Source: Liolophura sinensis
Taxonomy: Eukaryota > Mollusca > Polyplacophora > Chitonida > Chitonidae
Direction of reading: 5' to 3'
Assembly (NCBI RefSeq): GCF_032854445.1
Contig: NC_088304.1
Location: forward strand, 32,854,810-32,918,809
DNA: 64,000 nucleotides
Shown: positions 3,401 through 27,513 of the stretch, piece by piece
How the letters are laid out: every line of letters starts with the position of its first letter
Numbering within the stretch: the stretch's first letter is position 1
Program-made: the position numbers and the translations under genes
The notes under the pieces: model-generated
Seen by the model: the letters and a program-made list of their open reading frames with translations, nothing else
What the model was told of the DNA's origin: nothing
Database searches by the model: none

Positions 3401-6400
3401 CAAACAGAAAAGCTGGGACCAGTTAGACCAGACGGCTGTTCATGCTGCCAGGATGCAGAAAAATACCCACATCACACAGTCACAGGTGATTAAGTCATCT
3501 TTTTTTTTTTTTTTTGACTTACTTGTAGGGATAAGAATGATATGACCTGCATGAAGTGTGACACACCTTTCGGTCATAGATTTAGCCAGAATTGAAATCA
3601 GAACGTATCATTTCCAAATTTCTCCTATTTTCCCTATCTGTCTCAAGTTTATTTTGTCAGAATAGGGCGCCTCAAAGACACTGAGACACCCTTCTGGCTA
3701 AACCTATGTTTTTGTGTTTGGGATGACCATTGGGTTGAGAGGACTTTTGTTTTTGAGATGACCACTGTTTTGGAATGACTGCTGATTTGAAATTTTATTA
3801 TTTCCATATATATATTGTTAAGATGACCCCTGTTTTATTTCCCTAACACTTTTACTACTACACAGCAACTGAGCACAACAGCCAGTCCCAAAGTGTGGAG
3901 GAGTCTAGACCTTGATCTCAACTCCAAGCACCCGTTGTTCAACACCCGCAGTAGCTCCATGCCTACGCCGGGTACTAAGAAAGCCATGGAGACAAAGTCA
4001 AGTCTGTCCCAGGTGCGGGCGGCGCGGGGGTCTGTCTCCAACGAGAACAACGTCCTACTAGACCCCGAGATTCTGACTGATTACCCCACACAAGCACTAG
4101 TTCTCACAGTTCTGGTAAGATCACAGATAGTCTTCAGCTTGGCATGTACGAGTGCTTACCCCACACAAGCACTAGTTCTCACAGTCCTGGTAAGATCACA
4201 GATAGCCCTAAGCTTGGCATACACGAGTGCCTACCCCACACATAGTCTTGGGCTTGGCATGCACGAGTGCTTACCCCACACAAGCACTAGCTCTCACAGT
4301 CCTGGTAAGATCACAGATAGTCTTGGGCTTGGCATGCACGAGTGCCTACCCCACACAAGCACTAGTTCTCACAGTCCTGGTAAGATCACAGATAGTGTTG
4401 GGCTTGGCAAGCACGAGTGCTTACCCCACACAAGCACTAGTTCTCACAGTCCTGGTAAGATCACAGATAGTCCTAAGCTTGGCATACACGAGTGCCTACC
4501 CCACACATAGTCTTGGGCTTGGCATGCACGAGTGCTTACCCCACACAAGCACTAGTTCTCACAGTCCTGGTAAGATCACAGATAGTCTTAAACTTGGCAT
4601 GCATGAGTGCTTAAGGCCATACTCCTCTCAACTAGACTGTTGTGTCAGGTCATAAGCACATGCTTTCAACCTAACGACATGACCCAGCTGGAGTTGTTCT
4701 CCAGTCATTACATGTACATGTATGTTGATGCAATCCAAAGTCGTGTGGCCTCCAGCGACTGACCAACTGCAAACGACCAGTAGTGTTGCATCTGAGGTTG
4801 TCATATATGCCATGTTTTTACACTTACGACATACTGCAACTGACTTACGCAGGTCGTCAGATTTCCAGATGCCACACTCACAATGCTGCTAAGTAGTGCG
4901 CAGTAAAAAGCTATAAATGTTGAAATGATTTGGAATACTGTCAGTGACATATAAGTTCATCCTTAACTGTTCCTTTTTTAGAAAAAAAAATGAATTACTG
5001 TAAAATATTAGCGTTTGTGCTGAAACATAAATTTTCTCACTAGGATAGAGTCTGTTCCTGTAGTTTTGAAGTGTTGATGACAAGAGGTGATCATTGACAT
5101 TCACTACAGCCAGGTGGATTGTCTGCATTACAGTGTCATATACAGGCTATTGAGTGGCCGAGGTGGTTAGCCTGCCAGATTGGCACATTGACCCAGGAGG
5201 CTCTCACCAATGCAGTGGCTGTGAGTTCAAATTCAGCTCATGCTGTCTTCCTCTCCAGCCTGAAGGTCTCCGGAAGGTCTGCCAGCAACCTAAAGATGGT
5301 GAGGTAGTGGGTTTCCCATTGGCTCTGCCCGGTTTCATCCCACCATAATGCTTGTCACAGTCGTTTGAGTGAAATATTTCTGAGTATGGCATAAACCACC
5401 AATCACATAATTAGACACTTGATTTTTAGGCAACTCTCGTGCGAAACACGACAGATGAGAACGAGGTGCGGATACTTTACGAGTATCTAGCTGAAGCTTC
5501 AGTTGTATTTCCCAAAGTCTTTCCTGTTATGTGAGTATATCTTACTGTCTCAGTACTGTACGAGTATCTAGCTGTATTTCCCAAAGTCTTTCCTGTTATG
5601 TGAGTATATCTTACTGTCTCGGTACTGTGCGAGTATCTAGCTGTATTTCCCAAAGTCTTTCCTGTTATGTGAGTATATCTTACTGTCTCGGTACTGTGCG
5701 AGTATCTAGCTGTATTTCCCAAAGTCTTTCCTGTTATGTGAGTATATCTTACTGTCTCGGTACTGTGCGAGTATCTAGCTGTATTTCCCAAAGTCTTTCC
5801 TGTTATGTGAGTATATCTTACTGTCTCAGTGCTGTGCGAGTATCTAGCTGTATTTCCCAAAGTCTTTCCTGTTATGTGAGTATATCTTACTGTCTCAGTA
5901 CTGTGCGAGTATCTAGCTGTATTTCCCAAAGTCTTTCCTGTTATGTGAGTATATCTTACTGTCTCGGTACTGTGCGAGTATCTAGCTGTGTTTCCCAAAG
6001 TCTTTCCTGTTATGTGAGTATATCTTACTGTCTCAGTACTGTGCGAGTATCTAGCTGTATTTCCCAAAGTCTTTCCTGTTATGTGAGTATATCTTACTGT
6101 CTCGGTACTTTACGAGTGTCTAGCTGAAGCCTCAGCTGTATTTCCCAAAGTCTTTCCTGTTATGTGAGTATATCTTACTGTCTCAGTACTGTGCGAGTAT
6201 CTAACTGTATTTCCCAAAGTCTTTCCTGTTATGTGAGTATATCTTACTGTCTCAGTACTGTACAAGTATCTAGCTGAAGCTTCAGTTGTATTTCCCAAAG
6301 TCTTTCCTGTTATGTGAGTATATCTTACTGTCTCAGTACTGTGCGGGTATCTAGCTGTATTTCCCAAAGTCTTTCCTGTTATGTGAGTATATCTTACTGT

Positions 6401-9400
6401 CTCGGTACTGTGCGAGTATCTAGCTGTATTTCCCAAAGTCTTTCCTGTTATGTGAGTATATCTTACTGTCTCAGTACTGTACGAGTATCTAGCTGAAGCT
6501 TCAGTTGTATTTCCCAAAGTCTTTCCTGTTATGTGAGTATATCTTACTGTCTCAGTACTGTACGAGTATCTAGCTGAAGCTTCAGTTGTATTTCCCAAAG
6601 TCTTTCCTGTTACGTGAGTATATCTTACTGTCCCGGTACTGTGCGAGTATCTAGCTGTATTTCCCAAAGTCTTTCCTGTTATGTGAGTATATCTTACTGT
6701 CTCAGTACTGTGTGAGTATCTAGCTGTATTTCCCAAAGTCTTCCCTGTTATGTGAGTATATCTTACTGTCTCAGTACTGTACGAGTGTCTAGCTGTATTT
6801 CACAAAGTCTTTCCTGTTATGTGAGTATATCTTACTGTCTGAGTACTTTACGAGTATCAAGCTGAAGCCTCAGCTGTATTTCCCAAAGTCTTTCCTGTTA
6901 TGTGAGTATAACTTACTGTCTCAGTACTGTGCGAGTATCTAGCTGTATTTCCCAAAGTCTTTCCTGTTATGTGAGTATATCTTACTGTCTCAGTACTGTG
7001 CGAGTATCTAGCTGTATTTCCCAAAGTCTTTCCTGTTATGTGAGTATATTTTACTGTCTGAGTACTTTACGAGTATCTAGCTGAAGCCTCAGCTGTATTT
7101 CCCAGTCTTTCCTGTTATGTGAGTATATCTTACTGTCTCAGTACTTTATGAGTATCTAGCTGAAGCTTCAGCTGTATTTCCCAAAGTCTATCCTGTTATG
7201 TGAGTATATCTTACTGTCTGAGTACTTTACGAGTATCTAGCTGAAGCCTCAGCTGTATTTCCCAAAGTCTTTCCTGTTATGTGAGTATATCTTACTGTCT
7301 CGGTACTGTACGAGTATCTAGCTGTATTTCCCAAAGTCTTCCCTGTTATGTGAGTATATCTTACTGTCTCAGTACTGTGCGAGTATCTAGCTATATTTCC
7401 CAAAGTCGTCCCTGTTATGTGAGTATATCTTACTGTCTCAGTACTGTACGAGTGTCTAGCTGAAGCTTCAGCTGTATTTCCCAAAGTCTTCCCTGTTATG
7501 TGAGTATATCTTACTGTCTCGGTACTTTACGAGTGTCTAGCTGAAGCTTCAGCTGTATTTCCCAAAGTCTTTCCTGTTATGTGAGTATATCTTACTGTCT
7601 CGGCACTGTACGAGTGTCTAGCTGAAGCTTCAGCTGTATTTCCCGAAGTCTTTCCTGTTGTGTGAGTATATCTTACTGTCTCGGTACTTTACGAGTGTCT
7701 AGCTGAAGCTTCAACTGTATTTCCCAAAGTCTTTCCTGTTTTGTGAGTATATCTTCCTGTCTCAGTACTGTATGAGTGTCTAGCTGAAGCTTCAGCTGTA
7801 TTTCCCAAAATCTTTCCTGTTGTGTGAGTATATCTTACTGTCTCGGTACTTTACGAGTGTCTAGCTGAAGCTTCAACTGTATTTCCCAAAGTCTTCCCTG
7901 TTATGTGAGTATATCTTACTGTCTCAGTACTGTACGAGTGTCTAGCTGAAGCTTCAACTGTATTTCCCAAAGTCTTTCCTGTTGTGTGAGTATATCTTCC
8001 TGTCTCAGTACTGTACGAGTGTCTAGCTGAAGCTTCAGCTGTATTTCCCAAAGTCTTTCCTGTTTTGTGAGTATATCTTCCTGTCTCAGTACTGTACGAG
8101 TGTCTAGCTGAAGCTTCAACTGTATTTCCCAAAGTCTTTCCTGTTATGTGAGTATATCTTACTGTCTCAGTACTGTACGAGTGTCTAACTGAAGCTTCAG
8201 CTGTATTTCCCAAAGTCTTTCCTGTTATGTGAGTATATCTTACTGTCTCGGTACTTTATGAGTGTCTAGCTGAAGCTTCAGCTGTATTTCCCAAAGTCTT
8301 TCCTGTTGTGTGAGTATATCTTACTGTCTCAGTACTGTACGAGTGTCTAGCTGAAGCTTCAGCTGTATTTCCCAAAGTCTTTCCTGTTATGTGAGTATAT
8401 CTTACTGTCTCAGTACTGTAAGAGTATCTAGCTGTATTTCCCAAAGTCTTTCCTGTTATGTGAGTATATCTTACTGTCTCAGTACTGTAAGAGTATCTAG
8501 CTGTATTTCACAAAGTCTTTCCTGTTATGTGAGTATATCTTACTGTCTCAGTACTGTGCGAGTATCTAGCTGTATTTCCCAAAGTCTTTCCTGTTATGTG
8601 AGTATATCTTACTGTCTCGGTACTGTGCGAGTATCTAGCTGTATTTCACAAAGTCTTTCCTGTTGTGTGAGTATATCTTACTGTCTCAGTACTGTACGAG
8701 TATCTAGCTGAAGCTTCAGTTGTATTTCACAAAGTCTTTCCTGTTATATGAGTATATCTTACTGTCTCAGTACTGTGCGAGTATCTAGCTGTATTTCACA
8801 AAGTCTTTCCTGTTATGTGAGTATATTTTACTGTCTCAGTACTGTGCGAGTATCTAGCTGTATTTCACAAAGTCTTTCCTGTTATGTGAGTATATCTTAC
8901 TGTCTCAGTACTGTGCGAGTATCTAGCTGTATTTCCCAAAGTCTTTCCTGTTATGTGAGTATATCTTACTGTCTCGGTACTTTACAAGTGTCTAGCTGAA
9001 GCTTCAGCTGTATTTCCCAAAGTCTTTCCTGTTATGTGAGTATATCTTACTGTCTCGGTACTTTACAAGTGTCTAGCTGAAGCTTCAACTGTATTTCCCA
9101 AAGTCTTTCCTGTTATGTGAGTATATCTTACTGTCTCAGTACTGTACAAGTATCTAGCTGAAGCTTCAGCTGTATTTCACAAAGTCTTTCCTGTTATGTG
9201 AGTATACCTTACTGTCTCGGTACTTTATGAGTATCTAGCTGAAGCTTCAACTGTATTTCCCAAAGTCTTTCCTGTTATGTGAGTATATCTTACTGTCTCA
9301 GTACTGTACGAGTATCTAGCTGAAGCTTCAGCTGTATTTCCCAAAGTCTTTCCTGTTATGTGAGTATACCTTACAGTCTCGGTACTTTATGAGTGTCTAG

Positions 9401-12400
9401 CTGAAGCTTCAACTGTATTTCCCAAAGTCTTTCCTGTTATGTGAGTATATCTTACTGTCTGAGTACTTTATGAGTATCTAGCTGAAGCCTCAGCTGTATT
9501 TCCCAAAGTCTTTCCTGTTATGTGAGTATATCTTACTGTCTCAGTACTGTGCGAGTATCTAGCTGTATTTCCCAAAGTCTTTCCTGTTATGTGAGTATAT
9601 CTTACTGTCTCAGTACTGTAAGAGTATCTAGCTGTATTTCCCAAAGTCTTTCCTGTTATGTGAGTATATTTTACTGTCTGAGTACTTTACGAGTATCTAG
9701 CTGAAGCCTCAGCTTTATTTCCCAGTCTTTCCTGTTATGTGAGTATATCTTACTGTCTCAGTACTTTATGAGTATCTAGCTGAAGCTTCAGCTGTATTTC
9801 CCAAAGTCTATCCTGTTATGTGAGTATATCTTACTGTCTGAGTACTTTACGAGTATCTAGCTGAAGCCTCAGCTGTATTTCCCAAAGTCTTTCTTGTTAT
9901 GTGAGTATATCTTACTGTCTCGGTACTGTACGAGTATCTAGCTGTATTTCCCAAAGTCTTTCCTGTTATGTGAGTATATCTTACTGTCTCAGTACTGTGC
10001 GAGTATCTAGCTATATTTCCCAAAGTCTTCCCTGTTATGTGAGTATATCTTACTGTCTCAGTACTGTACGAGTGTCTAGCTGAAGCTTCAGCTGTATTTC
10101 CCAAAGTCTTCCCTGTTATGTGAGTATATCTTACTGTCTCGGTACTTTACGAGTGTCTAGCTGAAGCTTCAGCTGTATTTCCCAAAGTCTTTCCTGTTAT
10201 GTGAGTATATCTTACTGTCTCAGCACTGTACGAGTGTCTAGCTGAAGCTTCAGCTGTATTTCCCGAAGTCTTTCCTGTTGTGTGAGTATATCTTACTGTC
10301 TCGGTACTTTACGAGTGTCTAGCTGAAGCTTCAACTGTATTTCCCAAAGTCTTTCCTGTTTTGTGAGTATATCTTCCTGTCTCAGTACTGTACGAGTGTC
10401 TAGCTGAAGCTTCAGCTGTATTTCCCAAAATCTTTCCTGTTGTGTGAGTATATCTTACTGTCTCGGTACTTTACGAGTGTCTAGCTGAAGCTTCAACTGT
10501 ATTTCCCAAAGTCTTTCCTGTTATGTGAGTATATCTTCCTGTCTCAGTACTGTACGAGTGTCTAGCTGAAGCTTCAGCTGTATTTCCCAAAGTCTTTCCT
10601 GTTTTGTGAGTATATCTGCCTGTCTCAGTACTGTACGAGTGTCTAGCTGAAGCTTCAACTGTATTTCCCAAAGTCTTTCCTGTTATGTGAGTATATCTTA
10701 CTGTCTCAGTACTGTACGAGTGTCTAACTGAAGCTTCAGCTGTATTTCCCAAAGTCTTTCCTGTTATGTGAGTATACCTTACTGTCTCGGTACTTTATGA
10801 GTGTCTAGCTGAAGCTTCAGCTGTATTTCCCAAAGTCTTTCCTGTTGTGTGAGTATATCTTACTGTCTCAGTACTGTACGAGTGTCTAGCTGAAGCTTCA
10901 GCTGTATTTCCCAAAGTCTTTCCTGTTATGTGAGTATATCTTACTGTCTCAGTACTGTGCGAGTATCTAGCTGTATTTCACAAAGTCTTTCCTGTTATGT
11001 GAGTATATCTTACTGTCTCAGTACTGTGCGAGTATCTAGCTGTATTTCCCAAAGTCTTTCCTGTTATGTGAGTATATCTTACTGTCTCGGTACTGTGCGA
11101 GTATCTAGCTGTATTTCACAAAGTCTTTCCTGTTGTGTGAGTATATCTTACTGTCTCAGTACTGTACGAGTATCTAGCTGAAGCTTCAGTTGTATTTCAC
11201 AAAGTCTTTCCTGTTATATGAGTATATCTTACTGTCTCAGTACTGTGCGAGTATCTAGCTGTATTTCACAAAGTCTTTCCTGTTATGTGAGTATATCTTA
11301 CTGTCTCAGTACTGTGCGAGTATCTAGCTGTATTTCACAAAGTCTTTCCTGTTATGTGAGTATATCTTACTGTCTCAGTACTGTGCGAGTATCTAGCTGT
11401 ATTTCCCAAAGTCTTTCCTGTTATGTGAGTATATCTTACTGTCTCGGTACTTTACAAGTGTCTAGCTGAAGCTTCAGTTGTATTTCCCAAAGTCTTTCCT
11501 GTTATGTGAGTATATCTTACTGTCTCGGTACTTTACAAGTGTCTAGCTGAAGCTTCAACTGTATTTCCCAAAGTCTTTCCTGTTATGTGAGTATATCTTA
11601 CTGTCTCAGTACTGTACAAGTATCTAGCTGAAGCTTCAGCTGTATTTCCCAAAGTCTTTCCTGTTATGTGAATATATCTTACTGTCTCAGTACTGTACGA
11701 GTATCTAGCTGAAGCTTCAGCTGTATTTCACAAAGTCTTTCCTGTTATGTGAGTATACCTTACTGTCTCGGTACTTTATGAGTGTCTAGCTGAAGCTTCA
11801 ACTGTATTTCCCAAAGTCTTTCCTGTTGTGTGAGTATATCTTACTGTCTCAGTACTTTACGAGTGTCTAGCTGAAGCTTCAGCTGTATTTCCCAAAGTCT
11901 TTCCTGTTGTGTGAGTATATCTTACTGTCTCAGTACTGTACGAGTGTCTAGCTGAAGCTTCAGTTGTATTTCCCAAAGTCTTTCCTGTTATGTGAGTATA
12001 TCGTACTGTCTCAGTACTGTACAAGTGTCTAGCTGAAGCTTCAGCTGTATTTCCCAAAGTCTTCCCTGTTATGTGAGTATATCTTACTGTCTCAGTACTG
12101 TACGAGTATCTAGCTGAAGCTTCAGCTGTATTTCACAAAGTCTTTCCTGTTATGTGAGTATATCTTACTGTCTCAGTACTGTACTAGTATCTAGCTGAAG
12201 CTTCAGCTGTATTTCACAAAGTCTTTCCTGTTATGTAAGTATATCTTACTGTCTCGGTACTGTGCGAGTATCTAGCTGTATTTCCCAAAGTCTTTCCTGT
12301 TGTGTGAGTATATCTTACTGTCTCAGTACTGTACGAGTATCTAGCTGAAGCTTCAACTGTATTTCCCAAAGTGTGAGTATATCTTACTGTTCATTTATTT

Positions 12401-15400
12401 CAAACATCGGTACGTAAGTACTACACCTGTCTCAAACTATTCTAACATATATACATTCAGGTCCTCACCAAGCTACATGTTTTTAAAACATATACCGTAA
12501 TTATGTATATCTGCAAACTTACAATACATCTATTGACATGTGCGTTATTTTATGAATGTTTTCGAGCATAAATGCATTAAATGTTTTCACCATTTTCAAG
12601 ATGAATACATTAGTTGTGTTTCTACATAATGTACTAGTGTCTTCCCCTTTTTAAATGTTCTAAATAAAAGCACTCTAATTTCTGAAATTTTTATGAAAAT
12701 GAGCACTTCAACTTTTGTTGGTTAAATGTTTTAATTAGCCCTAGGCCTCCGTTCATGTCAACCTAAACTTTTCTCTTTTCTTTTTTCAGACATAGTTTAT
12801 TAGATTCCAAAATTACAAGTGTGTTGTCGTTGTGTCATGACCAAGTGATCCTCAACGCTGTCCAAAGTATTATCCAGAATATGATAGCATGCGAGGATTC
12901 CTCCCAGCAGACTCTGGCTAATTTACAAGGTATTTCTCTATTCTTAATGTCTTGTTTCATCGCTTAGGTAATTTGTGAATGCAAGTTGAATTTAAGAGTC
13001 TGTGTTCCTGGATCTAAAAATTATTGATTTGATTCAAAGTCCTTCCCTAACAGATAATTTTACTTATCTGGTCGTTAGAGCACCTGAATTTATGACATAT
13101 TTATGTGCATGTATTCAATTCCTAATGCTTTCCTGGGAGTTGTATTTTCTGATCGAAGGGTAAATGCAATCTTACGCACATAGAGTTGCATATTGGCTGC
13201 ATTCCACATGTATACCCTAAATCCTCAACCCAGACTGGCTTCCTCTCTGGCCTGTGGGTGGTCGTGGAATTTCCACTGGGCTCTGCCCGGTTTTCTCTCA
13301 CCATAATTCTGGCCGCCGTCGTACAAGTGAAATATTCTTGAGTATGGCATAAAACACCAATGAAATAAATAAATAATTCCTCAACCTTTCACACCTTTTA
13401 AGACCATCTTTCAATGCAATACATGCACATTAATTTGATTTTGGACACAAAACTACATTGGTCAGATTTGCAAATTTCAGAGCGTCATGAAAACTATTAT
13501 ATTATCATCCTACACAGATTTCAAATGTTACAAACACCTTGTCAACATGTGAAAAGGTTGAAAAATTACAGTGTATGCATAAATGCTAAAGTAGTCGCTT
13601 TATTATCAAGTGTTGCTTTCCGCAACATTGGTTAAGTAGAATGTTAGCGCAGTTTGGCCTGTAGAAGAATTTGTTACGACCAGGATGTTAACCATTGGTA
13701 GTATTGTCATAGCATTGGTAGTATTGTCATAGCATTGGTAGTACTGTCATAGCATTGGCATATGCCTTATTTTCTGCTTCAGCTATTGGGTTTGGTGGGC
13801 TCTGGCGGTTTGCTGGAACTTTCACGAAGGTAAGATATTGAGCTCAAACTTGGCTAACTTCTAAGTTTTGTGAGGTTTAGTTGTACTTCTTGGGTTGGTG
13901 GGCTCTGGCGGTTTGCTGGAACTTTCACGAAGGTGAGATATTGAACTCAAACTTGACTATCTTCTACGTTTTGTGAGGTTTAGTTGTACTTCAGCTATTG
14001 GGTTTGGTGGGCTCTGGCGGTTTGGTGGAACTTTCACGAAGGTAATATATTGAGCTCAAACTTGACTAACTTCTACGTTTTGTGAAGTTAAGTTGTGCTT
14101 CAGCTATTGGGTTTGGTGGGCTCTGGCAGTTTGCTGGAACTTTCACGAAGGTAAGATATTGAGCTCAAACTTGACTATCTTCTACGTTTTGTGAGGTTTA
14201 GTTGTACTTCAACTATTGGGTTGGGGGGCTCTGGCTTTTTGCTGGAACTTTCAAAAAGGTGAGATATTCAGCTCAAACTTGACTATCTTCTACGTTTTGT
14301 GAGGTTTAGTTGTACTTCAGCTATTGGGTTGGTGGGCTTTAGCGGTTTGCTGGAACTTTCACGAAGGTAAGATATTCAGCTCAGACTTGACTAACTTCTA
14401 CGTCTTGTGAGGTTTAATCGTGCATTAAGGCCCATTGAATAGGCAGGTACAAGTGTTCACCAAAGCTGTTGCTACACTACATGTATGATGTACACCTTAA
14501 ATATGTTCTTGATGCACACCCTTACAGCACATGCACTGCTTTCTGCATTCTCTTTAAATGACTGCCACCAGAAGCAGATTTTGTACAGAGGTCTTGAACA
14601 ACAACGAGGTCACTGGGGTCATGGTGTTGAGGCACTGAGTGATGCCAGAAAAAAGAAAATCTCTGGCCTCAACCTTTAACTATAAACAGCATTATTCCGA
14701 CAGATGCCTGAAAAAATTTTGTTGATGAAAACTTGGCAGTAATATGAATCAAGCCTAGAGAACGGCACATACACTGCAAGGAATATGGTAGTTGATCCGA
14801 AGATCCTAGTTCCGAATTTAGGGGAGGTGAAACGAGACCCAACTAGAACAGGTCTGCAGTTTGGAGATTTGAAGCTGTTTCATATTTGTTTGATGTACAA
14901 AAAAAAAAAAAAAATACATTGGTCTAGGTATAAACTTAAAAAAAATTTAAAGTAAAGAAACACTTACTTTTTGAAAGTGGCCAAAAGCGTGCCAAATCTG
15001 TATTTGTATATATATCAGTAAACCTATTACTTGTCTTTCACATGTTATTAATAATTAAGTAAAAAAAGCTTTAATAATGGCCTTATTACAGGGGTTGAAA
15101 AAGGAACATTTTAGGAGTCAAATAGTAAGTAAACAAATTTTTTTTCTAATCACTATGTGTTGTTTATTTTATTCACAGTCTCCCCAGCAGAGTGACACGG
15201 CAGAGCTGTTTGTGAACTGCCTGGAGGCCATGGTGGAGACCTGTCTCCCAGGGGATGACTTGGATGTACAAAACCCCTACCCTGTACTTCTGGGAATCAC
15301 CTCTAACATCAACCTGTCCAGCTCCATGTCCAGCCTCAGCGTCTGCAGTGTTCACTCTCCCACGGACAAGGACAGCGTCGACTCGGTCCTTTCTAACGGG

Positions 15401-16940: not shown

Positions 16941-18459
16941 TGTTGTGCATGAAACATTTACATATAAATGAATCTTAAAACTCATGATATACTGGTTAGA
17001 TGATGCCTTGGTTTCTCCAGGAATTTGTTTATAGGGAGACTGAAATATTCATTTGTGATTTTACTCAAGATAATCCCACAAGAAGAGTCTCTTTTCCATT
17101 GGGAGCTGCCATTATATATACTTTTGTAATTTGACAGAGTCTGGCACAATATATTATGTATATCAGTGGTACAAACAGTTATTCAATCTTTACGTGTATT
17201 ATCTTTTGATTAACTCAAGGAACAGTTATCACTGTAGAAATTGAAGAGGAGATGGTGACGTATTTTACATTGATAGTTATTTTCACCGTGGATATTTTCA
17301 ACACCAGACAACAACATGGGTGATCTTGAAGCATCGAAGTAGGGCAAAGATATTCCTAGGTAAATTCACTCATATATCCAGAGAATGCTTTTGAAAGCTT
17401 TAGTTTATGTAAGAGGAACCAATGCTTTATAATAATTGCTGTTAATAAAACTTGGTGGTAATAATGTTATATGAAATCAGAGAAATCCAGCTTAAAATTA
17501 CACAATCTTTGCTGTTCGATAACTAAGATTTGAAAAATTCGGAATAGTTGTCAGCACGTAATTTGGGATGCTTTGTGTGTAATGTCTCCCCACCACCCCA
17601 CCACTGGTATGTGAAGTATAGCCTATATATACATTGTTCATAGATATATTTTTTATTCCTTCCTTTGATGCTTTAACAAGATGTTCATATTTGACAGCTT
17701 CCTTTTAAAATATTTGTGCATGTAAACCCCCTGTTTTAATTCAAGGTGACTGTATGACGCCATGTTTATAATGGATGCTGTTATAATTGACCTACTGGGT
17801 TTTCCAGATATATTCATGTATTTGGGTTCAGTGATGGTTTGTAGGGGGTAGGGGTAGGGGAGCGGGGAGTGGGACGGGAATAATTCATAATATAAAGTCC
17901 TAAATTTCTCATTCAACTGTTTGCATTCAGTAATTTGTGGCATAATTTTGGTAATTGGTGCAATGGCATGTGTTCTGTTTCTTCCAGGATTTTAATATAT
18001 ACCTACACATACATTTCCATATTTTCTCTCCTGCATGATTAAACATATTGAACGCATTATTACCATTACATGTACAAGTGTGAGATAATTTCTGCTGGTG
18101 TTGATTGATAGAATGTATTTTTTCCCAGTTCTCATGAGTAGAATGTACTTTGCTTTATTCTTGTCACACATGAAAAGGCCAAACCTTTTCCCAATATATT
18201 TTGCACCTGTATGAATAGATGTGATGTCAAATTGGATCTGGTTTTGCTTACGGTGGTTGACGGCTGCTTGGGCTGATATCCATTCGCATGTTTGTATATC
18301 CATCCTTGTTACTCATACTGCTACCATTTGAATAGTGCTGCAACTTGAACAGAAGACAAAATTAGCCAGTGGCAATCATAGCTCTGGGGGTGCCAGTTGA
18401 GACCGATTCTTTAGAGCTGTTTTTCACGGAGTCAAATTTTAAAACTTCATCACTCCGGC

Positions 18460-25212: not shown

Positions 25213-27225
25213 TCAGGAATCACACCCATTGTGCTTGTAAGAAAAGCGATCGTGGAGTCGTGAGGATGCCGCGAACTGCACAAATTCGTCCTGCGGGAAA
25301 CTGGGACTGGAAACTGGAAAATCGGAAGCGTACAACTCCGCTAGATGGCACTGGCTGCTCTTTGGTCCACTTTGCACGAGGGATTTAGCCGCTGAAGAGT
25401 ACGACCTTCGAAGGGCATTGAATGTTTTCGCCCTGCGATGAAACTGACTCACTAACGCTTTGAAGTTCTTATCAAACGAACTTAGATGCTTTTTAACATT
25501 CTTTGATGCTCTGCTGTAAGAACTGTTTTTACCTTGTATTGCACTTAATCCGACTAATATCAGCTGCCTGCTTAGCTCCTTTTCTGAAGAATGTATTTCG
25601 GTAGCTTCACATGGATCAGCTGCAGCCGGCTTTTTTGTAGCCGATTTTAAAGTATTATTTAATACCCGAGGCATGTTATCTTCCAATGCGGGTTGTAAAT
25701 CACCGACTTCCCCAAGGGTTTTGGAAACATATGGTGAGCATAATCTTTTACCTCTAAGGGCTATTGGTTTAAAGGTATAAGACTTTTCAGTTGTTATATT
25801 CAACATCTCGGACGTGAATCTGGGACGTGAATGGGGTGTTTTCAGTGCACAGTTCTTTTGATTATCCTTTGTCGTTAAACTATTTGCATGAATCTCTACC
25901 GCTAATCCAGAGTTGTCATCAAATCTGAGTGCCGACTGAACAAATTGGTCTTCTGTTTTTGACGACCTAGGTTTACAGGGTACTTCCGACGTTGATCGAC
26001 AAAGAAGGTCGATTCCAGATATCGACAGGCTGTTGAGCGGTGTAGGTAAAGTCAGTGTCCTTGATATCGGTTCTGTTGCTATGATACACCGGCGCTCATT
26101 GATTGTCGACGGCATATTCGCACAAATGTCGATTGTCACAGGTTTTTCCTCGACTCTTCCGTGTCCACTTCTGTACGAATCCCCAACACCATCTTCAGTT
26201 GTCGATGAAACATTGTCTGTAGTTTTGTAGCGCACAATTCCCTCCTTTGCACAAGGACGGACCTGTGACAATGCCGATGACTGATCTACTGAACCATGTT
26301 CTGACTGACAGCTCATAGTGGATAGCTCCACATTGCACTCTGAATTAAGTTCACTTATGCCAGAATGTACCGTACATGTACATGTTATGCATGTATCAGT
26401 GCCGTCACATGGCCCTATAACTTTCGGATTTGATACCCAAACTCTTTCGCTGCCAACGCTGTCACTCTGACCATCCGACTCAACCTTCGTGGATGAGTCA
26501 CTCCAGTTTTTCAAGTCCGTCATCGACACAGCAGACCATCTCTGCGCTTTATCCATAAGATCGAGTTTTGGGACGCTTAGTAGGGAAGAAGCGAAGTATC
26601 CCTCATCCAGTTCTATACTGTATATTGATGGCGTGGAATATTCAAGATCCGATCCATCGTCCTCTGAGTGTCCAGAAGCAGTTCTGGAATTTCCCCGACA
26701 GTCTACCATGTTGACCGTGATCTTGGGGAGAGGAGGAATATGGGTCTGACAACAAGAACTGGTTATCTCTTGTCGTTTTTGGGATATCTCAGCGGCCGCC
26801 AACTGGGCGCTATCATCGGGAGAACGTTTTGTAGGCAAACAGTTACTGGTAATCATACGATGAAAGCCTAAGAAGCCAGGGATGGGTTTCCGGGCACCGG
26901 AACTAGGTTTCCTGGCCCATCTGTTGTAGTATGCTTTGCTAACCGTCACGTCCGGGGGTAGCCCATTGCCCAGGCGTTGATCTTGTACCGACGGTGCTTT
27001 CGTGTCTTCCAACATTTTTTCATTAGTTGGTCTGTTTCGCAGATTTCCTTCTTCGCACCTCTCTGCAAATTTCCGCGTGTTAAGTCCTGTCCTACATCTC
27101 TGTTCCGTTAACCTATTGTCGGCTTGGCCGGGCGCTGGTATGCCCACAATTCGTCCGGAGGGCTGATCTAAACCCGGCCTTTTCTTTGCACCTTTTCTGT
27201 ACCAACTTGCGGATGACGATACCAA
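25213..27225 (-). CDS. Uncharacterised Ser/Thr-rich protein, long single-exon reading frame
   Basis: I do not recognise this protein. The frame is open for 670 codons without an intron, far beyond chance for this AT-rich region. The product is rich in Ser and Thr, hydrophilic, with no visible signal peptide, membrane segment or catalytic motif. There is an acidic patch around residues 187-210 (SEDDGSDLEYSTPSIYSIEL) and a basic C-terminal part (KNVKKHL, FHRRAKTFNALRR). The most upstream start-like codon (27223-27225) is TTG. The first in-frame ATG is at 27013-27015, giving 600 residues, and the frame stays open upstream to a TGA near 27330 with no ATG. Either translation starts at 27015 or an upstream exon is spliced on. 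It could be a lineage-restricted, largely disordered protein. The pieces at 27627-28260 are decayed copies of parts of it. Confidence 0.6.
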   Translation of the reverse strand: MVSSSASWYRKGAKKRPGLDQPSGRIVGIPAPGQADNRLTEQRCRTGLNTRKFAERCEEGNLRNRPTNEKMLEDTKAPSVQDQRLGNGLPPDVTVSKAYYNRWARKPSSGARKPIPGFLGFHRMITSNCLPTKRSPDDSAQLAAAEISQKRQEITSSCCQTHIPPLPKITVNMVDCRGNSRTASGHSEDDGSDLEYSTPSIYSIELDEGYFASSLLSVPKLDLMDKAQRWSAVSMTDLKNWSDSSTKVESDGQSDSVGSERVWVSNPKVIGPCDGTDTCITCTCTVHSGISELNSECNVELSTMSCQSEHGSVDQSSALSQVRPCAKEGIVRYKTTDNVSSTTEDGVGDSYRSGHGRVEEKPVTIDICANMPSTINERRCIIATEPISRTLTLPTPLNSLSISGIDLLCRSTSEVPCKPRSSKTEDQFVQSALRFDDNSGLAVEIHANSLTTKDNQKNCALKTPHSRPRFTSEMLNITTEKSYTFKPIALRGKRLCSPYVSKTLGEVGDLQPALEDNMPRVLNNTLKSATKKPAAADPCEATEIHSSEKELSRQLILVGLSAIQGKNSSYSRASKNVKKHLSSFDKNFKALVSQFHRRAKTFNALRRSYSSAAKSLVQSGPKSSQCHLAELYASDFPVSSPSFPQDEFVQFAASSRLHDRFSYKHNGCDS

Positions 27226-27513
27226 TGCTAAGGTAGACGTAACCGTTTTTCCGTCGCCTTGTGTGAATTGTGTTGAACAGTCAGCTCTATAAACGACTCG
27301 CCTGATTGTCGGATGGTTACGTCATTAACAGACCTTTCCAGTACTCGTTAAACATGCATGCTGGCTGAGGCAACATGGTGCTTGTTACATGTAGTTCCCG
27401 CCCTTGACTTGACTTCTTGTTGGGTAAGCACTGCGTAAGATAGGAAATAGTCTTTGATCGTATAAGAGCCTTAGTTCGTGGTATCTGCTGATTAAACAGG
27501 GTGCCTCGTGACG

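Follow-up and report, generated by a model that had tools for sequence, protein, structure and literature searches.

A Probable Mirage-Type Minisatellite Copied from an Exon-Intron Boundary of NF1 in the Chiton Liolophura sinensis

NF1 Locus and Structure of the Array

The window analyzed here is a 64,000-nucleotide stretch of the Liolophura sinensis genome (RefSeq assembly GCF_032854445.1, contig NC_088304.1, positions 32,854,810 to 32,918,809, forward strand). It contains part of an NF1 gene, and one NF1 intron carries a long tandem array whose units consist of the end of the upstream exon joined to the start of the intron, including the splice donor. The features around this intron are as follows.

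3866..4114, plus strand: preceding NF1 exon, with its donor at 4115
5430..5530, plus strand: authentic NF1 exon, corresponding to human residues 2624-2656, with its donor at 5531
5531..12390, plus strand: array of exon end plus donor; 91 junctions spaced 81, 69, or 79 bp apart, with a truncated final unit
12391..12789, plus strand: non-repeated rest of the NF1 intron, with the acceptor ...CTTTTTTCAG
12790..12929, plus strand: next NF1 exon

The boundary between the exon and the intron at 5530/5531 reads TAT/GTGAGTATATC, where the slash marks the junction. Full parsing placed the first donor junction at 5531 and the last, the 91st, at 12373, with 90 intervening spacings of 81 bp (51 cases), 69 bp (37 cases), and 79 bp (2 cases). 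Stricter unit matching recovered fewer units, 72 and 56. Tandem Repeats Finder (TRF) reported the array at 6053-12372 with a period of 81, 82.2 copies, and a score of 8685. The 81-bp unit is composed of at most ~58 bp of the NF1 exon end and ~23 bp of the intron start including the donor, and a 12-bp block is missing from 36 of the 90 aligned units. The donor hexamer is GTGAGT in 87 of the 91 junctions, GTAAGT in one, ATGAGT in two, and GTGAAT in one; 88 junctions thus have GTGAGT or GTAAGT. After the truncated final unit, other intron sequence continues to the acceptor at 12789. An 88-base query was found at no fewer than 92 places in the genome. The array accounts for 91 of them, and the other belongs to the homologous exon in a second NF1 gene; these places are scored candidates and their counts are lower bounds. 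The array is far beyond what chance would produce.

NF1 exons were annotated with a human sequence, and two of them were then confirmed against PDB chains. The 33 residues encoded by the exon at 5430-5530 match residues 2624-2656 of human neurofibromin in a PDB chain (E 2.7e-10). The original prediction, made from the letters alone, had described an array of 85-95 units in an intron after NF1 exon 6, each with ~57 bp of exon end, sometimes in a form lacking 12 bp, and ~24 bp of intron. TRF and parsing bear out this composition, and the 91 junctions fall within the predicted range, although the exact number is approximate. The view that a coding exon end had become a satellite, giving one intron dozens of consensus donors, agrees with the 88 consensus-like donors. 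The assignment to NF1 was correct, but "exon 6" only reflects its place as sixth among the exons visible in the window and is not exon 6 of the gene.

Copy Number and Assembly

The source assembly, GCA_032854445.1, was made from HiFi reads with a mean length of 8,347 bp at 14x, according to the available part of its description (PMC11068029). Its species name was corrected by its authors from Liolophura japonica to L. sinensis (PMC12441733). Because reads of this mean length barely span the 6.9-kb array, its copy number is approximate. An assembly artefact in the presence or the size of the array could be imagined for the same reason, and the assembly has a probable mitochondrial concatemer: contig C99 shows seven COX1 matches ~15.5 kb apart, and contig C632 shows one, which probably reflects concatenation during assembly. 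Against an artefact, the units are diverged. Neighboring units have an identity of 0.91, the mean pairwise identity over all units is 0.87, and only 2% of neighboring units are identical. Similar arrays are also present in several genes, and many of them are short enough to be contained in one read. An artefact is therefore very unlikely; the array is securely present, and only the exact number of its copies is uncertain.

Other Exon-Edge Arrays in NF1 Genes

The array is not an isolated case. The possibility that it is specific to one intron was rejected, since further exon-edge arrays were found in NF1 and in other genes. Those in the window, together with one associated exon, are as follows.

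4081..4610, plus strand: second exon-edge array, exon end plus GTAAGATC; six donors, spacings of 75 and 115 bp
13777..14416, plus strand: third exon-edge array, built from the 47-bp exon together with its acceptor and its donor; TRF gives 109 bp x 5.9
13783..13829, plus strand: complete 47-bp NF1 exon, authentic copy

In the array at 4081-4610, the authentic exon end forms the first unit. For the array at 13777-14416, a script recovered four copies of 46-47 bp; the rest are altered. Upstream of the window, another NF1 exon end is repeated (GFGNSNIEMKHLCLEYMTPWLPNLTR/GTATGT; stretch L005, 7792-8221).

A second NF1 gene lies on the minus strand of the same chromosome, ~19 Mb from the first (G000:C10:13889900-13899899, stretch L003). 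Its C-terminal exons were matched and are open. It has the homologous exon (L003, 4911-5012) and the same intron, with no array there. Two other exon ends of this gene are accompanied by arrays, 95 bp x 11 and 35 bp x 3, the latter at LTVL/GTAAGG.

Duplications across exon-intron boundaries can found new introns, as stated in the available part of PMC4974935, and the repeats of the 47-bp exon include both of its splice sites. The array could accordingly be taken as an intron gain in progress, in which a new intron has been, or is being, produced by tandem duplication. The array shares with that process a duplication that crosses an exon-intron boundary. Unlike intron gain, the copies sit inside an existing intron whose position is common to the second NF1 gene. 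Because that gene has the same intron without an array, the intron does not owe its existence to the array, and we consider intron gain extremely improbable.

Two intronic arrays, at L005 1335-2262 and L015 804-1410 (gene orientation), have units with a good donor (CTCACAGTAAGTATGG and CCAGTGAGTATAG, respectively). No exon was seen adjoining them, and they are either relics of exon-edge arrays or products of chance. A recurrent tail like GAAATATTCTTGAGTATGGCATAAAACACCAAT is observed at 5366-5406 and 13337-13375 of the window; we presume that it probably comes from a tRNA-derived short interspersed nuclear element.

Exon-Edge Arrays in Unrelated Genes

The survey covered three motor-protein families, NF1, and the glycosidase family GH1 cluster of the window. 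The motor-protein stretches, sampled so that the judgement would not depend on NF1, were picked by dense exon matches and not by arrays. The dynein (PF12774) and myosin (PF00063) sample consisted of 27 stretches, 151,924 bp, with 142 exon matches: all 108 dynein matches and 34 of the 84 myosin matches, one more myosin match that crossed a cut being unused. Arrays were called with TRF at a period of 20 or more and merged. For the null expectation, the founding unit of each array was given a random position, either within introns or spanning a junction; this null and the splice-site scoring are our own.

Ten of 35 arrays straddle a junction in the dynein and myosin sample, six at donors and four at acceptors, versus 2.8 expected (P 0.0002). 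All ten were inspected at the sequence level. For example, a dynein exon end, ...YTK/GTGAGTG, is in an array of 83 bp x 8, an acceptor with GLAKKVYTLYSL is in an array of 92 bp x 4.6, and a myosin exon start, CCAACCCCTTGCTAGAAGCC, preceded by CTGTTTTCAG, is in an array of 95 bp x 3. Arrays near junctions in stretch L013 did not include the junction and were not counted.

The same settings were applied to the kinesin (PF00225) sample (18 stretches, 93,318 bp, 79 of 137 matches). Two of 26 arrays straddle a junction after curation, both at acceptors, versus 1.8 expected, showing no excess. The script had called four; those in L034 and L050 were dropped by hand because the profile match ran beyond the true exon. 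In the 45 pooled stretches, 12 of 61 arrays straddle a junction, versus 4.6 expected (P 0.0015). The uncurated counts are 4/26 for kinesin (P 0.10) and 14/61 for the pool (P 0.0001). The 12 curated arrays include six on the donor side and six on the acceptor side, so both 5' and 3' exon boundaries are hit. Exon-edge arrays exist in unrelated genes. Their excess over random placement at junctions is suggestive only.

Several GH1 glycosidase genes are present on both strands at 29784-58221 of the window. The window contains 21 of their exon matches, and the cluster continues beyond it. Past position 17,000, in the GH1 part, none of the 12 arrays overlaps any of the 21 GH1 exon matches, and the nearest arrays start 20-21 bp from a GH1 exon match.

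Donor Choice and Reading Frame

The NF1 exon at 5430-5530 ends two bases into a codon. Readthrough past the donor at 5531 gives ATG TGA (...PVM*), placing a stop at the second codon of the extension, and the TGA is present again in the next unit. The spacings in the array are multiples of three in 88 of the 90 cases. The frame is thus seldom the problem for a later donor, but the in-frame TGA means that it cannot give the full protein. On this reading of the sequence, the donor at 5531 appears to be the only one in the array that yields the full protein. The original prediction had allowed either the first donor or a later one used at the cost of a changed frame; the first option fits the protein, whereas later donors mostly keep the frame and are blocked by the TGA.

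Alternative donors could add units to the protein and produce isoforms. The neighboring array at 4081-4610, in which the first 75-bp extension keeps the frame and has no stop, would allow this. The extension in the large array, in contrast, stops at its second codon, and the copies show no third-position bias. It is most unlikely that production of isoforms accounts for the large array.

Block Duplications in the Array and No Sign of Constraint

Duplications of blocks of units are visible within the array. A run of 14 consecutive units matches the run lying 34 units further along, and a run of 10 matches the one lying 32 units further along, both at an identity of at least 97.5%. Such block repeats are as expected from unequal exchange, and they would fit the length instability between alleles or tissues known as a trait of the "mirage" minisatellites of amphioxus.

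The variability in exon-derived columns is 2.1, 5.9, and 3.5% at the first, second, and third codon positions, respectively. Variants are not concentrated at third positions, and the copies show no sign of coding constraint. Nor is there a sign of special conservation of the donor, since the variability of the hexamer is unremarkable (P 0.23 versus six random columns). With no third-position bias and an ordinary donor hexamer, there is no sign of selection on the copies as code or as donors.

The intactness of 88 of the 91 donors might suggest a selected device, in which the donor array binds the U1 small nuclear ribonucleoprotein in bulk and suppresses premature polyadenylation or sets NF1 dosage. 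A long donor-containing variable number tandem repeat (VNTR) in human ABCA7 can accompany altered splicing and lower expression, according to the available sections of PMC5954066. Such a device would not be expected from the ordinary conservation of the donor columns, from the lack of an array in the homologous intron of the second NF1 gene, or from acceptor-side arrays, which have no such role and are equally frequent in the motor-protein genes. We regard this explanation as improbable.

Comparison with Known Repeats

Mirages of amphioxus have been described for Adh3, the globins BflGb6 and BflGb9, and troponin C, and splice-site repeats for PGBD5. In the available sections of PMC3087553 and PMC3902484, they are minisatellite-like tandem copies of an exon-intron boundary on the donor or the acceptor side; the AG/GT signals recur in the copies, the authentic section lies at the array edge, and regular splicing is reportedly not disturbed. 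The chiton arrays fit this structural definition: the unit of the large array spans an exon-intron boundary, and the authentic exon section is at its margin. The chiton belongs to another phylum. Its large array has 91 units, versus six and three in the two BflGb6 haplotypes given in the sections available, a comparison limited to BflGb6.

The VNTR in intron 18 of human ABCA7 has a 25-bp unit in 12 to about 427 copies and includes the donor of exon 18. Its repeat unit includes a donor, as in the chiton array. ABCA7 units start at GT and have no copied exon end, whereas the chiton units carry up to ~58 bp of coding sequence. By our reading of the available passage, retention of one unit occurs at ~2% and is unaffected by VNTR length (PMC5954066). 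The human repeat is a functional parallel to the donor array. Ordinary intronic minisatellites, many of which are found in the window, are similar in that units are exchanged in blocks, and they differ in that the unit of the large array straddles a splice junction.

No such arrays in molluscs were reported among the titles and abstract openings listed, a scope that leaves out most subscription papers and does not prove absence. A term search of the comparative chiton genome paper (PMC12005716) found none of "tandem repeat", "minisatellite", and "satellite".

Origin and Persistence

It is very likely that the large array is a mirage-type minisatellite, in which the duplication of a splice junction is tolerated through splicing at the outermost site. 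The initial event would have been a tandem duplication that copied the junction, running from ~58 bp inside the NF1 exon to ~23 bp inside the intron. Additional copies would have landed in the intron, and unequal exchange, including duplications of blocks of 10-14 units, could have raised their number to ~90. The array may persist because splicing stays with the authentic donor at 5531, the outermost one. Any mis-splicing to a donor further on would run into the in-frame TGA at once and is expected to result in nonsense-mediated decay. The same process may have operated at other junctions of the genome, with the real exon located 5' in donor arrays and 3' in acceptor arrays. We infer the duplication history, the use of the first donor, the decay of mis-spliced mRNA, and near-neutrality.

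Several points weigh against this interpretation. Use of the first donor is deduced and not observed, and no test made here accounts for preference of the first donor over many identical ones. The reads used can barely span the array. The junction excess is clear in one sample (10/35) and absent in the other (2/26). Long ABCA7 arrays are associated with more skipping of exon 19 and lower expression in the available sections of PMC5954066, so 91 units need not be neutral.

As far as the searches show, the array is a very large member of the mirage type in a new phylum, and its pattern is recurrent in the genome. Mirage repeats would thereby be extended from amphioxus to a mollusc, recurring across unrelated genes. 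The observations suggest that exon-edge repeats are a general by-product of minisatellite-rich genomes. A stronger proposal, which we hold tentatively and consider somewhat doubtful, is that splice junctions are preferred birthplaces of minisatellites in this genome, that amplification into introns has affected thousands of exon edges, and that use of the outermost site is the general rule making this tolerable. If junctions are such birthplaces, tandem duplications that copy junctions arise or survive more often than chance.

The arrays are natural experiments on the choice among nearly identical donors or acceptors in a row. According to the available part of PMC11068029, RNA reads from five tissues of the species have been deposited, and they could gauge the strictness of first-site use against array length. 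The arrays are also a warning for annotation, as the copies of exon ends may be mistaken for exons.

Other Features of the Window and Genome

A stop-to-stop frame of 702 codons is present on the minus strand of the window at 25216-27321. Two myosin exons with nearly the same profile range are located 1.1 kb apart, at G000:C1:26642195-26642299 and C1:26643291-26643386; they are candidates for mutually exclusive exons. Elsewhere in the genome, eight mollusc-type hemocyanin domains are arranged in a row.

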